The notes beneath the pieces were generated by a model. The model saw only the letters and a list, made by a program, of their open reading frames with translations. It was not told where the DNA came from and ran no database searches. The position numbers and the translations under genes were made by a program. From Desulfonispora thiosulfatigenes DSM 11270 (GTDB taxonomy: Bacteria > Bacillota > Peptococcia > Peptococcales > Desulfonisporaceae), in NCBI RefSeq assembly GCF_900176035.1, contig NZ_FWWT01000018.1:1-45879 (forward strand): DNA of 45,879 nucleotides, in the 5' to 3' direction. Positions 33,005 through 36,852 of this stretch are shown here, in pieces (position 1 is the first letter of the stretch; each line of letters begins with the position of its first letter).

Positions 33005-33050
33005 TATCCCCTTATAGTAGAAAAAACAAACTACTGTAAGGGGATATTTT
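33005..33050. terminator. terminator between terC and the minus-strand gene at 33049
   Basis: TATCCCCTTATAGTAG pairs with CTACTGTAAGGGGATA (one mismatch) around AAAAAACAAA, followed by TTTTAT. It lies between two convergent genes and may serve both. Confidence 0.85.
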
Positions 33051-33639
33051 ATGCATTTTTCTTGTTTAAGTTTGATAACACATTTTGAACTAATGGATTT
33101 TGTAATAATTTCATTAAATCTTCCTTAGAAGATAGGCCAGGTGAAGCTGATTTCATTTCAGGATTAGAATTTGCATCATGATCAGAATCTGAATTTTCAT
33201 TAGAATCATTATACGCTTCACTAAAAGATTGATTAAAAGAATTATTATAAGACTGTGTGTCTTTTAAGCTATAATAATTATCATTATAATCGTGATTTTC
33301 TGTATTTTTAGGTGCAGCTGGTTTAGCTTCTGTTTTTTCTTCCTGATAAGAAGTCATTTTGCGAAAAGAGGTAGAAGCCTTAGTAACCACAGGGACAACA
33401 GTGTCAAGGGCATCTAGTAGTTCGTCTACACTATCAGCTAAAGATCTAACTTGATTACAAATTTGCTTAACATTAGCAAGGGGCATAAAAAACGATCGGG
33501 GTTCCTGAGTTGTTTTCCTTGAGCCATCCTCACCTCTATACTCTTGATTATTAATATCTCTATTGTCTGATGCGTTTTTTTCTATATTTTCATCACTTGC
33601 TTGAAATTCTACTGGTCTAGCTTTTATAGTACGGTGCAT
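33049..33639 (-). CDS. unknown protein, paralogue 1 of the LLxNPxxQ family
   Basis: A 196-residue soluble, polar protein that I do not recognise. Three parts are visible: a polar N-terminus (about 1-50); a heptad-like segment (about 50-95, QVRSLADSVDELLDALDTVV) that is probably a coiled coil; and, after a low-complexity Asn/Asp/Ser linker, a C-terminal motif LMKLLQNPLVQNVLSNL. The same coiled segment and C-terminal motif recur in the proteins at 34781 and 35501, so the three form a local family. AGGAGG lies 6 nt upstream of the ATG. Neighbours are membrane micropeptides and sigma-K-like promoters, suggesting a sporulation role. Function unknown. Confidence 0.8.
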   Translation of the reverse strand: MHRTIKARPVEFQASDENIEKNASDNRDINNQEYRGEDGSRKTTQEPRSFFMPLANVKQICNQVRSLADSVDELLDALDTVVPVVTKASTSFRKMTSYQEEKTEAKPAAPKNTENHDYNDNYYSLKDTQSYNNSFNQSFSEAYNDSNENSDSDHDANSNPEMKSASPGLSSKEDLMKLLQNPLVQNVLSNLNKKNA

Positions 33640-33794
33640 ATCTTCACCTCCTTAAATATCCCTATGCAATATTAATATCAGTTTAATAGATAAATATTAC
33701 AGTTAATTTTAGAAAATATTAATCACATTTGGGATTTTCATGCATAGGATTAATTGTCTAAGGATTTTATACGAATTTAGGAGGTGAGTTTTAA

Positions 33795-34010
33795 GTGAAA
33801 GGTTTTTTTAATGAAGATAATAACGTGGAAGGTTTAATTACAATTGTTATTATCGTTCTGCTTTTAGCTATTTTATTTGGTGGATCACGTGGTTTTGGTA
33901 AAGCATTCTCTGAAGAAGAAAAGGAAGAAGAGGATAACCTTTTCCCTGTAATGAGTAATGACGATGAGGTAGATGCAGAAGATTCAGTAGAAGGGGGATG
34001 TGAAGCTTGA
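33795..34010 (+). CDS. small single-pass membrane protein with acidic tail
   Basis: A 71-residue protein: short polar start (MKGFFNEDNNVEG), one membrane helix (about 14-30, LITIVIIVLLLAILFGG), then a strongly acidic tail (EEEKEEEDN ... EEGGCEA-like end with one cysteine). No family recognised. Translation starts at GTG with AGGAGGTG 8 nt upstream. It overlaps the next gene by four bases (TTGA), so the two are coupled. It is divergent from the gene at 33049. A possible CATAGGATT -10 at 33743 with a TCAC 16 bp upstream resembles the sigma-K-type elements further on, weakly. Confidence 0.75.
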   Translation: MKGFFNEDNNVEGLITIVIIVLLLAILFGGSRGFGKAFSEEEKEEEDNLFPVMSNDDEVDAEDSVEGGCEA

Positions 34011-34204
34011 ATCAGCCAGAATTACCAAACTCAATTGAAGATGTAAAGAATATGTTAAAAGGTATTGAAGCATTTTTGCCTGAGGAATACAAAAATGTTA
34101 TAAATGAAGCTATTGCAGGTATTGAAAATGGCGATGGTAATCCAGAAGAAAGTAAACAAAAGTTACAACAATTGCTTTTAAACTTAATGAGTGGGCAAAA
34201 ATAA
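34007..34204 (+). CDS. small soluble helical protein
   Basis: A 65-residue protein with no membrane segment, predicted mostly helical (VKNMLKGIEAFLPEEYKNVI, then ESKQKLQQLLLNLMSGQK). It starts with TTG overlapping the stop of the upstream membrane protein (TTGA), with AGGGGGA as binding site about 9 nt upstream, and ends before a clear terminator. No family recognised. The coupling suggests that it works with the membrane protein encoded just before it. Confidence 0.72.
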   Translation: MNQPELPNSIEDVKNMLKGIEAFLPEEYKNVINEAIAGIENGDGNPEESKQKLQQLLLNLMSGQK

Positions 34205-34209
34205 ATAAG

Positions 34210-34241
34210 AAATAGGCTATTAATTTAGCCTATTTTTTTTA
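34210..34241 (+). terminator. terminator of the small plus-strand pair
   Basis: AAATAGGCTA and TAGCCTATTT form a hairpin with a loop of TTAATT and a T run. Confidence 0.88.
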
Positions 34242-34257
34242 TATCTGCATATATATA

Positions 34258-34291
34258 TTAAAAAAGACTTCCTCATAAGTTTGAGGAAGCC
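34258..34291 (-). terminator. terminator of the minus-strand micropeptide operon
   Basis: On the minus strand GGCTTCCTCAA pairs with TGAGGAAGTC around ACTTA and is followed by TTTTTT. It closes the transcript that runs from 35119 to 34307. Confidence 0.85.
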
Positions 34292-34306
34292 CTATATTTG
34301 CTAGTA

Positions 34307-34438
34307 TTAGCAGCAGCAGCAAATAAATACGAAGAATAAAATAATTAAGATAATCCAAGTCCAGCTTTCTCCACCAAACCATCCGCCACCGCAGCCACCT
34401 TTGTTACCACCGAAACCACAACCTAAATCTTCAACCAT
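34307..34438 (-). CDS. 43-residue Cys-rich membrane micropeptide
   Basis: Begins MVEDLGCGFGG, continues with a Gly/Cys/Trp-rich segment, then one hydrophobic helix (WIILIILFFVFI) and ends in four cysteines directly at the membrane face. GGGAGG lies 8 nt before the ATG. It resembles, in style only, the YjcZ-type sporulation micropeptides of bacilli. It is the last gene of a run of three micropeptides behind the 112-residue protein at 34781. Closest local relative: the peptide at 34486 (both end in ICxCC-like clusters). A spore-envelope role is inferred from context. Confidence 0.75.
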   Translation of the reverse strand: MVEDLGCGFGGNKGGCGGGWFGGESWTWIILIILFFVFICCCC

Positions 34439-34485
34439 TATAATTCCTCCCTACTAATTTATTTTAGTTACTTTCTAACAGAGTA

Positions 34486-34596
34486 TTAGCAACAGCAGTT
34501 ACAAATGAACCAGAAGAATAAAATAGCTATAGCTAACCATACAATCCAAGTGCATTCATTGCCACTTCCAAAGTTAAATCCACATCTTTCACTCAT
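34486..34596 (-). CDS. 36-residue Cys-rich membrane micropeptide
   Basis: Starts MSERCGFNFGSGNECTW, then a hydrophobic helix (LAIAILFFWFI) and a CNCCC end. GGAGGTGAT, an extended Shine-Dalgarno, is 5 nt before the ATG, stronger than average. It lies between two further micropeptide genes in the same direction with 40-47 nt gaps and is probably co-transcribed with them. Cysteines flank the helix on both sides, which suggests metal binding or disulfide cross-linking. Confidence 0.75.
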   Translation of the reverse strand: MSERCGFNFGSGNECTWIVWLAIAILFFWFICNCCC

Positions 34597-34636
34597 TACT
34601 TATCACCTCCTTCTATGAACTATTTACTATGTAAAC

Positions 34637-34744
34637 TTAAGCTTTAGCCTCACAGAAACAATTAATAATTAAAATGATAATTATTAAGGTTATGAGCATA
34701 GTTAAGGTATTGCCATCACCGGTAAAACAACCACCGATTCCCAT
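34637..34744 (-). CDS. 35-residue membrane micropeptide (CFC family)
   Basis: Starts MGIGGCFTGDGNTLTML, then a run of isoleucine and leucine (ITLIIIILII) and NCFCEAKA at the end. AAAGGAG is 8 nt upstream of the ATG. Together with the peptides at 35306 and 36396 it forms a family with a Cys-Phe start, LIT plus poly-Ile helix, and a CFC motif just after the helix. It begins 36 nt downstream of the 112-residue protein at 34781. Confidence 0.75.
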   Translation of the reverse strand: MGIGGCFTGDGNTLTMLITLIIIILIINCFCEAKA

Positions 34745-34780
34745 AGAAAATTCTCCTTTCCTAACTAATAGATTTAAAAT

Positions 34781-35119
34781 TTACTTTTTAGATAAAGATG
34801 CCAAAATACTTTGTAAAGATGGGTTTTGGAGCAATTCACTAATTTGTTCAGTTGATATTTGAGGTTTATTATCCATTGTAACGGGAATATTAGTACTAAC
34901 TAATGTTTGTTCTTCAGGAATTAACTCATTATTTTTTATTGATCTAATGTATTCTTGTGATACCGAGCTTATAATCGGAACCAATTTTTCAATAGAATTA
35001 ACTAAATGATCTAAGCTTTCGGTGATAGTTATAATGTTTTTTGAAGTTTCTCTAATACTTTTTGTCGTTACGTGCATTAGAGAGTCTTGCTCAGTTTCCA
35101 TAAAGTCTTTAGGGTGCAT
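34781..35119 (-). CDS. unknown protein, paralogue 2 of the LLxNPxxQ family (short)
   Basis: A 112-residue protein. The central heptad-like segment (KNIITITESLDHLVNSIEKL, then VPIISSVSQEY) and the C-terminal motif ISELLQNPSLQSILASL match those of the proteins at 33049 and 35501; it lacks their long polar N-terminus. AAGGAG is about 6 nt upstream of the ATG. A sigma-K-type promoter (35195-35223) precedes it by about 70 nt. It heads the operon that continues with three micropeptides. Function unknown; scaffold or anchoring of the micropeptides in a spore layer is a guess. Confidence 0.8.
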   Translation of the reverse strand: MHPKDFMETEQDSLMHVTTKSIRETSKNIITITESLDHLVNSIEKLVPIISSVSQEYIRSIKNNELIPEEQTLVSTNIPVTMDNKPQISTEQISELLQNPSLQSILASLSKK

Positions 35120-35194
35120 GTTTGCTCCTTTCTTCAGTAATTAAATTTAATTACTGACACAAGTTAAAGGATTTAATTATGTAATTTATATTAG

Positions 35195-35223
35195 TACTGT
35201 ATGTAAGAAGTAGTAATTTTGTT
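35195..35223 (-). promoter_or_regulatory. sigma-K/E-like promoter upstream of 35119
   Basis: On the minus strand AACA (35223-35220) is followed by 16 bp and CATACAGTA (35203-35195), an exact fit to the Bacillus sigma-K consensus (mACm, 16 bp, CATAnnnTA) and close to the sigma-E -10. It points at the 112-residue gene, with a leader of about 68 nt. Confidence 0.6.
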
Positions 35224-35305
35224 ACAATCATTTATATTTTTAGAATTTTGTTTAAAGTGGGGATAAAGGTAAAGATAAAGGCTTTATCCCCAAAAAAATT
35301 TATCC

Positions 35306-35410
35306 TTATTCTGCACAGAAACAACCAATAAGCATGATAATGATAATGATTGTTATCAGCATTGATAAGGTATTATTATCACGACCAAAGCAATTACCGA
35401 AAAAGCTCAT
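35306..35410 (-). CDS. 34-residue membrane micropeptide (CFC family)
   Basis: Starts MSFFGNCFGRDNNTLSML, then a poly-Ile helix (ITIIIIIMLI) and GCFCAE. AAAGGAGG is 7 nt upstream of the ATG. It is clearly paralogous to the peptide at 34637 (shared CF, NTL.MLIT and CFC). A possible sigma-K-like promoter (35454-35482) lies about 45 nt upstream. Two AT-rich gaps surround it; I see no larger frame there. Confidence 0.76.
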   Translation of the reverse strand: MSFFGNCFGRDNNTLSMLITIIIIIMLIGCFCAE

Positions 35411-35453
35411 GAAATAACCTCCTTTCAACTTTAATTTAATTACTTACCCCGTA

Positions 35454-35482
35454 CAGAGTATGAATCGAGCAAGGTATTTGAC
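35454..35482 (-). promoter_or_regulatory. sigma-K-like promoter upstream of 35410
   Basis: On the minus strand GTCA, 16 bp, then CATACTCTG. The -10 deviates at the last base; the -35 and spacing are the same as in the element at 36546. It points at the 34-residue peptide gene. Confidence 0.42.
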
Positions 35483-35500
35483 ACTGAAAAAGCAGGAAAT

Positions 35501-36109
35501 TTATTGTTTTTGATTATTAGCTAAATTTTTTAGCATATTTTGGACAAGAGGATTTTCTAGGAATTGAGTAAAACTAGCTTGATTTAGAGGCGGTTTAGTT
35601 GTTTGATTAAAGTTACCCATATCTCTAGAGTAATCTTGCTCATCGGGTGTATTAGATACAAAATCATTTTCATCTACATTAGTATGAACACTATTTTTAG
35701 ATAATGAACTAATAACTGGGGCTAAAAGCTCAATGGAATTAACTATTCCATCTACGCTATTAGCAACCATACGAATACTATCAGCTGTTTTTTTTATATT
35801 ACTTGTTGCAGATGTTAAAAGATAAACAGGTGATCTTTTCAATATAGGTTTTTTGAATTTCAAGTTTGGCTTGTGAAACTTTATTCCATTATTTATAGCC
35901 TTCATTTCAGGCTCATTCATAGTTTGAGATGAAAAATTTTCATAATGCTCAGAATAGTTGTCGACTAGGGTAATATTATCATTCTCAAGATTATGCTCAT
36001 TTAAAGTATTTTCTGATATTTCTCCAGAGAAATCGTTTATATCGTTTGTTATTTCTTCAGTAGTAGATATATTTTCCTCATAGAAATCTTTTTTCTTTTT
36101 ACGACTCAT
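35501..36109 (-). CDS. unknown protein, paralogue 3 of the LLxNPxxQ family
   Basis: A 202-residue polar protein. A charged N-terminus (MSRKKKKDFYEENI) and an acidic region (about 15-65) precede a basic stretch (KFHKPNLKFKKPILKR). Then comes the heptad-like segment IRMVANSVDGIVNSIELLAP (about 118-140), a polar linker, and the C-terminal motif FTQFLENPLVQNMLKNL. Two of these parts are shared with paralogues 1 and 2. GGAGGC lies about 5 nt upstream of the ATG. No signal peptide or membrane helix. Probably in the same transcript as the micropeptides at 36396 and 36224. Confidence 0.8.
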   Translation of the reverse strand: MSRKKKKDFYEENISTTEEITNDINDFSGEISENTLNEHNLENDNITLVDNYSEHYENFSSQTMNEPEMKAINNGIKFHKPNLKFKKPILKRSPVYLLTSATSNIKKTADSIRMVANSVDGIVNSIELLAPVISSLSKNSVHTNVDENDFVSNTPDEQDYSRDMGNFNQTTKPPLNQASFTQFLENPLVQNMLKNLANNQKQ

Positions 36110-36223
36110 TTCTTGCCTCCTTTACTTTATGAGTTAGGCAAAAGTATTAATCTTCATAATTTAAAGAGAAGCAGTAAAAAATGGAAAAGGCCATCTTTTA
36201 CTGCGTAAAACTAGCAAGAAAAT

Positions 36224-36340
36224 CTAGCAATCAAATGCTTCTAATAAAATACCAAGGATATAGAATATAATTAATAAAGTAAAGATAACTTCTAATGCAC
36301 CACCACTAAAAAAGTTAGCACCTCCGAAACCACAGCCCAT
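36224..36340 (-). CDS. 38-residue membrane micropeptide (LEVIFTLL type)
   Basis: Starts MGCGFGGANFFSGGALEVIF, followed by a hydrophobic helix (TLLIIFYILGILL) and EAFDC. AAAGGAGG is 6 nt upstream of the ATG. The CGFGG start is shared with the peptide at 34307, while LEVIFTLLI is shared with that at 36748 (LEIIFTLLI). It lies between another micropeptide and the 202-residue protein, all on the minus strand. Confidence 0.76.
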   Translation of the reverse strand: MGCGFGGANFFSGGALEVIFTLLIIFYILGILLEAFDC

Positions 36341-36395
36341 GATAATCCTCCTTTCAAATCGTGAATTTTCATTAATATAAGTATTTTATTTTTAA

Positions 36396-36506
36396 TTAAT
36401 CAAATATTTGGCAGAAACATGATAAGATAATGATGATAATAACCATAGTTATTAACTTAGAAACACAATTGTCTGAACCGAAAAACCCACAACTTCTATC
36501 TGACAT
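36396..36506 (-). CDS. 36-residue membrane micropeptide (CFC family)
   Basis: Starts MSDRSCGFFGSDNCVSKL, then ITMVIIIIIL and SCFCQIFD. AAAGGAGGG is 7 nt upstream of the ATG. It shares the LIT-polyIle-CFC pattern with the peptides at 34637 and 35306. Three tandem sigma-K-like promoter elements lie upstream between 36546 and 36726, the densest regulatory patch in the cluster. Confidence 0.76.
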   Translation of the reverse strand: MSDRSCGFFGSDNCVSKLITMVIIIIILSCFCQIFD

Positions 36507-36545
36507 GAACGAGCCCTCCTTTCTATGTATGTGTTCTTACAGTGA

Positions 36546-36574
36546 TAAGATATGAATGTTAGTATGAAATTGAC
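36546..36574 (-). promoter_or_regulatory. sigma-K-like promoter P3, proximal
   Basis: On the minus strand GTCA, 16 bp, then CATATCTTA. The -10 fits CATAnnnTA exactly. Transcription would start about 30 nt before the micropeptide start at 36506. Confidence 0.55.
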
Positions 36575-36617
36575 ACAACTTTTTTTAAAATTTTTTCTAA
36601 CCTTTTGCTTACACCCA

Positions 36618-36646
36618 TAAGATATGGAGTTTAGGTAGAAAGTGTT
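36618..36646 (-). promoter_or_regulatory. sigma-K-like promoter P1
   Basis: On the minus strand AACA, 16 bp, then CATATCTTA, an exact fit to the Bacillus sigma-K consensus. It lies in the first of two roughly 50-bp direct repeats, and the element GGGTGTAAGCAAAA follows just downstream of the -10. Confidence 0.58.
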
Positions 36647-36698
36647 ACAAAAATTTTAGAAATATTTTTAGATTCTGTGTATGTTTTTGCTTACACCC

Positions 36699-36726
36699 TA
36701 AGTTATGTAGTAAACTTAAAAGTGTT
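36699..36726 (-). promoter_or_regulatory. sigma-K-like promoter P2
   Basis: On the minus strand AACA, 15 bp, then CATAACTTA. It lies in the second direct repeat and is again followed by GGGTGTAAGCAAAA. Confidence 0.52.
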
Positions 36727-36747
36727 ACGAAAAAGTAAATAAATATT

Positions 36748-36852
36748 TCAAGAAAATAAATCCATTAATAGACTTAAGATAAATAATACTATTAGCAAGG
36801 TGAAAATTATCTCAAGTGATAATGAGGCGTTAAAATTGATTTTTTTAATCAT
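36748..36852 (-). CDS. 34-residue membrane micropeptide (LEIIFTLL type), no Cys
   Basis: Starts MIKKINFNASLSLEIIFTLL, then IVLFILSLLMDLFS. AAGGAGGG is 8 nt before the ATG. Similar to the peptide at 36224 through LE(V/I)IFTLLI, but without cysteines. It is the first of the minus-strand series, divergent from glyQ by about 85 nt, and precedes the promoter repeats, so it may belong to a separate transcript. Confidence 0.7.
   Translation of the reverse strand: MIKKINFNASLSLEIIFTLLIVLFILSLLMDLFS

Follow-up and report, generated by a model that had tools for sequence, protein, structure and literature searches.

A conserved cluster of one-helix micropeptides and helical partner proteins in Desulfonispora thiosulfatigenes, probably serving the spore envelope

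A 3.8-kb stretch of the genome of Desulfonispora thiosulfatigenes DSM 11270 encodes tiny membrane proteins together with helical partners, a conserved set that had not been annotated before. It lies within the window analysed here, the whole 45,879 nucleotides of sequence from contig NZ_FWWT01000018.1 (positions 1 to 45,879 of the forward strand; NCBI RefSeq assembly GCF_900176035.1), and contains seven micropeptide genes (m1 to m7), three larger paralogues (P1 to P3) and two small plus-strand genes. Because the genes are real and under selection, occur together, track sporulation genes and are preceded by sigma-K-type promoters, this cassette is probably a late mother-cell product with a function in the spore envelope, and its site of action would probably be the spore coat or the outer forespore membrane.

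Seven micropeptide genes and their relatives

An earlier note, made from the sequence of this stretch without database searches, described seven minus-strand genes whose products of 34 to 43 residues each have one hydrophobic helix, interleaved with three larger paralogues on the same strand and accompanied by two small plus-strand proteins; all of these were found in place. Its statement that every micropeptide gene has a strong AGGAGG site stands only in part, as all seven sites are purine-rich and five of them read AGGAGG, the others being AGGAGA (before 34744) and GGGAGG (before 34438). Cysteines number two to six in six of the seven peptides and are lacking in m1, and three sequence types can be distinguished: type A-like (m1 and m3), type B with tryptophan in the helix (m6 and m7), and type C ending in C-F-C (m2, m4 and m5).

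A blind scan for open reading frames with an ATG start, 25-80 codons, a strong ribosome site and a hydrophobic helix returned six in the bare region, seven when upstream context was included, and none in the remaining 42 kb of the window, whereas 500 second-order Markov copies of the region yielded a mean of 0.018 such frames and a maximum of one. The note had made its proposal depend on conservation of the short frames, and types A and B are indeed conserved in relatives: every locus of genus UBA7185 and its kin encodes a single peptide of type A (FFETLIMLIIIIWLLRWLF) and a single one of type B (SWSWIWWIII and variants). The 22 residues of the type A helix are identical in nine genomes, which were gathered by a motif inside the helix, a choice that favours identity there. 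The underlying nucleotides vary at 19 of 66 sites, 15 of them third codon positions and four of them first positions of leucine codons, and about 19% of random single changes in this helix are expected to be silent. This pattern argues strongly that the type A helix of the relatives is under strong purifying selection, and their type A and B peptides appear, as far as sequence can tell, to be translated and selected.

Within the window, m6 and m7 align to the type B helix of the relatives through common tryptophans and are the only two matches in their own genome; the resemblance of m1 and m3 to type A is weaker. Relatives of the micropeptides in family f2 are longer (65-85 residues), and some longer low-complexity proteins of family f4 (L012:9947-10465 and L051:3751-4146) likewise end in a type A-like helix, which suggests that the helix could act as an anchor or docking module. 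The sequences of the micropeptides fit membrane anchoring through a predicted insertion of the helix. We note that a second run of short genes lies by the cluster at L013:10592-12847, including repeated 51-residue MSDxFVASVINQKVVNQSAQQVLVLIAAQ proteins that, judged by eye, are unrelated to the micropeptides.

Partner proteins and distribution of the cassette

The C-terminal motif that the earlier note saw in the three paralogues was borne out as [LF]LxNPxxQxxLxxL, along with a helical core. The predicted structure of P2 has a confident 53-residue helix and a C-terminal hairpin, the rest being disordered, at low overall confidence as judged by the predicted template modelling score (pTM 0.27). 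No sequence relation of the paralogues to SafA, CotE or SpoVID emerged from Pfam, NCBIfam or a PDB profile search, the last of which matched designed or coiled-coil proteins only and gave no usable family. The 65-residue plus-strand protein was modelled as three helices with moderate confidence, from three sequences only, and the 71-residue protein before it is the positional counterpart of a one-helix 'VLYTRSLG' gene that adjoins the three-helix gene in relatives.

A search with one paralogue as query retrieved few relatives; a profile of the paralogue family matched 15 of the 21 genomes of the order Peptococcales and none of the 25 other genomes of the class. Most family-positive genomes carry a full-length gene with the C-terminal motif together with a short core-only gene inside the micropeptide cluster. 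In a phylum sample of 299 genomes the family is otherwise nearly absent: G083 gave a clear though distant match, and G285 a weak one (E 6.5e-4). Of the 15 family-positive genomes in the order, 14 also encode the three-helix protein (65-73 residues), which all six family-negative genomes lack; in most of the 14 its gene is only a few kilobases from a family gene, and in G003 the parts are spread over contigs. Its profile also matches six genomes outside the order, in four of which one-helix micropeptides, some of them Cys-rich, adjoin the three-helix gene when the loci are read by eye. Applied to 18 loci, the blind scan placed 47 short frames no farther than 3.5 kb from the three-helix gene and seven elsewhere.

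Sigma-K-type promoters upstream of cluster genes

The pattern AC-N16/17-CATANNNTA, in which AC corresponds to the -35 box of sigma-K in B. subtilis promoters, precedes 21 of 52 cluster genes in a first set of loci versus 4 of 132 other genes in the same loci (p = 5e-10), shuffles giving 0.31 on average. In a second set, consisting of loci unused in choosing the pattern, four of them outside the order, it precedes 19 of 46 cluster genes versus 3 of 107 others (p = 4e-9), and when both sets are pooled and leaders of at least 60 bases are considered, 38 of 68 cluster genes versus 9 of 198 neighbours (p = 4e-19); the genes of related genomes are non-independent, so that fewer separate events underlie the data than all three p-values would imply. 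Upstream of the cluster genes no enrichment is seen for the patterns of sigma-E, sigma-G, sigma-F or sigma-A, and a relaxed sigma-E pattern is found at none of 92 cluster genes, compared with 38 of 92 for the AC -35. The GTAAC form of the promoter, which was first noticed in the window, was given up as a general signature; it is the AC form that is general. The two mother-cell sigma factors have the CATA -10 box in common, and one sigma-E site reported for C. difficile is ATA-N16-CATATATA (PMC3789822).

Some of the other genes that carry the motif may themselves be regulon members, an example being a clostripain-family protein by the full-length gene. Clostripain-like proteins are encoded near the full-length family gene in family f4 at L051:4249-5472 (a PF03415 match), and at L054:133-1368 and L012:5716-6969 (by likeness); two of these three genes have a sigma-K-type promoter, and the products are possible coat-processing proteases. 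In the window, the minus strand before m2 (36546-36728) contains a promoter-like block (CATAxCTTA then TGTAAG) that recurs in tandem as three near-copies, spaced about 70-80 bases apart.

Features of the cassette and its promoter matches, with positions counted from the first nucleotide of the window
Feature	Coordinates	Strand	Description
Micropeptide m1	36748..36852	minus	34 residues, type A-like helix, cysteine-free
Sigma-K-type promoter match	36699..36728	minus	GTAAC-N16-CATAACTTA, upstream of m2
Second sigma-K-type promoter match	36618..36648	minus	GTAAC-N17-CATATCTTA, upstream of m2
Third -10-like element	36546-36554	minus	CATATCTTA, upstream of m2
Micropeptide m2	36396..36506	minus	36 residues, type C, helix then CFC
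Micropeptide m3	36224..36340	minus	38 residues, type A-like helix
Terminator-like hairpin	36171..36204	minus	after m3
Paralogue P2	35501..36109	minus	202 residues, disordered N-terminus, long helix at residues 94-146, C-terminal helical hairpin with FLENPLVQNML
Micropeptide m4	35306..35410	minus	34 residues, type C
Sigma-K-type promoter match	35195..35225	minus	GTAAC-N17-CATACAGTA, upstream of P3
Paralogue P3	34781..35119	minus	112 residues, core helix plus LLQNPSLQSIL
Micropeptide m5	34637..34744	minus	35 residues, type C
Micropeptide m6	34486..34596	minus	36 residues, type B, W..W helix, CNCCC end
Micropeptide m7	34307..34438	minus	43 residues, type B, CCCC end
Terminator-like hairpin	34264..34293	minus	after m7
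Three-helix protein	34007..34204	plus	65 residues, TTG start, 4-base overlap with preceding gene; conserved cassette marker
One-helix protein	33795..34010	plus	71 residues, GTG start, acidic tail
Near match CAC-N16-CATA	33724..33746	plus	upstream of the plus-strand pair
Paralogue P1	33049..33639	minus	196 residues, core helix plus LLQNPLVQNVL

Association with sporulation

Spo0A or SpoIVA is encoded by 17 of the 21 genomes of the order, and the paralogue family is found in 15 of these 17 versus none of the other four (Fisher p = 0.0025); within the order the cassette is thus restricted to genomes positive for sporulation genes, and SpoIVA is present in all six out-of-order genomes that carry the three-helix protein. 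The earlier note treated occurrence in asporogenous lineages as telling against its proposal, and none of the four genomes lacking sporulation genes has the cluster. The link to spores that it supposed is well supported by this phyletic match to Spo0A and SpoIVA, by the sigma-K-type promoters and by sporulation-type neighbours in relatives. The neighbourhoods vary from lineage to lineage, but sporulation genes, judged by eye from translations, are often among them: SpoIIM-like and XerD-like genes at the f2 clusters; dacF-like, SpoIIAA-like and polysaccharide deacetylase genes next to the f2 full-length gene; and a GerA-type operon in f4. The neighbours in the window itself are TerC-, TypA- and GlyQ/GlyS-like and are not spore genes.

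Proposed function and alternative explanations

We propose that the mother cell would make the cassette late in sporulation under sigma-K, and that the micropeptides would either be set by their one helix in the outer forespore membrane, which derives from the mother cell, or be packed into the coat as hydrophobic peptides, presenting short ends that are Gly/aromatic-rich and, in some lineages, Cys-rich. The larger paralogues and the three-helix protein would then have a scaffolding or adaptor role, bringing the micropeptides together as one layer of the spore envelope; from the long helix and C-terminal hairpin predicted for P2, assembly of such a layer by the paralogues is plausible. In this picture membrane insertion, location and scaffold role are inferred. 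The earlier note had pictured this layer as Cys-cross-linked or metal-binding, an idea that we dropped as a defining feature given the spread of cysteine counts, the same helix types having 0-2 cysteines in f4 versus 8-13 in f2; in some lineages the layer may be tuned by the chemistry of its cysteines, but it is not defined by it.

Several points weigh against a late mother-cell role in the spore envelope. The promoter consensus was first noticed in these same data, its -10 element is common to sigma-E, so that the assignment to sigma-K hangs on the -35 'AC', and within the window full promoter matches stand before m2 and P3 only. The type C peptides (m2, m4 and m5) have no homologue beyond the window, and cysteines per peptide range from 0 to 14 across loci. 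Finally, G011, a sporulation-positive genome that is 96% complete, is without the paralogue family, which is therefore not required wherever sporulation genes persist.

Among the other explanations, it is unlikely, if worth keeping in mind, that the micropeptides are non-structural, membrane-active factors of late sporulation, regulated or held by the helical proteins and concerned with mother-cell lysis, membrane remodelling or germinant access. Small hydrophobic peptides are able to act on membranes, and the f4 cluster adjoins germination receptor genes of the GerA type, but this neighbour is seen in f4 only, and the several paralogous copies per genome suit a structural role better, which is favoured too by the Gly/aromatic/Cys-rich tails, the occurrence of the helix fused to long, low-complexity proteins, and the helical partners. 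Control by sigma-E early in the mother cell, the cassette then serving engulfment or assembly of the cortex, is quite improbable: the shared CATA element and the SpoIIM-like gene adjoining the f2 clusters would suit it, whereas the complete lack of the relaxed sigma-E pattern upstream of cluster genes, set beside the frequency of the AC -35, does not.

The small size and single hydrophobic helix would befit type I toxin-like or holin-like peptides or the remnant of a prophage. Searches of PHROGs and PADLOC gave weak matches only and no convincing family, however, and conservation across the order alongside sporulation genes, together with co-occurrence with helical partners and sigma-K-type promoters, is hard to reconcile with these toxin-antitoxin, holin and phage readings, which we dropped as nearly excluded. 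That the frames are spurious, lying by accident in an intergenic region, might be thought from their shortness and their absence from protein family libraries, yet this has a negligible chance of being right in view of the number expected at random, the finding that the type A helix of nine genomes has changed by synonymous substitutions only, and the conserved company that the parts keep. We regard a late mother-cell function in the spore envelope as the probable explanation.

The sigK gene and other observations in the same genome

In D. thiosulfatigenes sigK is present as two same-strand halves about 43 kb apart (G000:C22:361722-405463; L117, L118 and L119); in many relatives it is intact and above cut-off. 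The gap holds a 518-residue serine-recombinase-like gene by the N-terminal half (L119:6942-8498) and phage tail-, amidase- and holin-like genes by the C-terminal half. The insert is presumably a skin-like prophage, whose excision would be needed before sigma-K could be produced. The gene is also in two pieces in G006, G013, G067 and G210; the pieces are about 2.3 kb apart in G067, and in G210 they lie about 6 kb apart on opposite strands, such that inversion rather than excision would be needed. The genome also encodes, at G000:C23:134441-136147, a match to sulfoacetaldehyde acetyltransferase (Xsc) of 1001 bits, above the curated cut-off, which together with the order suggests a taurine user.

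Comparison with known spore proteins

No cassette protein has a Pfam or NCBIfam match above the curated cut-off, and no description of the cassette was found in the open-access papers searched. The nearest systems are the YjcZ/SscA-type proteins of Bacillus, which like the window peptides are shorter than about 50 residues and have a Gly-rich start and one hydrophobic helix; SscA acts in coat assembly. The cassette differs from them in its other helix types, its often Cys-rich ends and its tie to helical partner genes, and we know of no helical partner genes beside yjcZ. No YjcZ/SscA-type model matched up to E = 5 when the window peptides were run against Pfam and NCBIfam, type B members against Pfam and type A members against NCBIfam, searches whose power is limited by the short length of the peptides. 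As yjcZ belongs to the sigma-K regulon of B. subtilis (PMC517825), tiny one-helix sigma-K proteins are already a known kind.

Other spore proteins are more remote. SpoVM and CmpA are very short mother-cell proteins active at the forespore surface (for SpoVM see also PMC3533761). SpoVM, an early product of sigma-E control, is an amphipathic helix, whereas the helices of the cassette are fully hydrophobic and its promoters are of the sigma-K type. CotY/ExsY and CsxA are not tiny one-helix peptides, unlike those of the cassette, in which the number of cysteines varies from 0 to 14. CotY/ExsY and CsxA have been described as cysteine-rich proteins that form outer spore layers (PMC8546674, PMC7333573).

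The cassette adds several new, testable candidate families, linked by their promoter signature to the mother cell late in sporulation, and does so in an order whose members include gut Peptococcaceae as well as Desulfonispora, and it illustrates that spore genes of fewer than 80 codons can be recovered by joining promoter, ribosome site, helix and neighbourhood. Clostridial spore-formers are without several of the coat morphogenetic proteins of Bacillus, and coat proteins not yet identified are expected in them (PMC3533761). In particular SafA, CotE and SpoVID, the scaffolds that organise the coat layers of Bacillus, are reported to be absent from clostridia (PMC3533761), and replacements are therefore to be expected. 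As a tentative extension of the proposal, which we regard as possible but doubtful, the cassette could be an undescribed envelope module of anaerobic Bacillota that takes over part of the job of SafA, CotE and SpoVID, with lineage-specific cysteine loads tuning its cross-linking.

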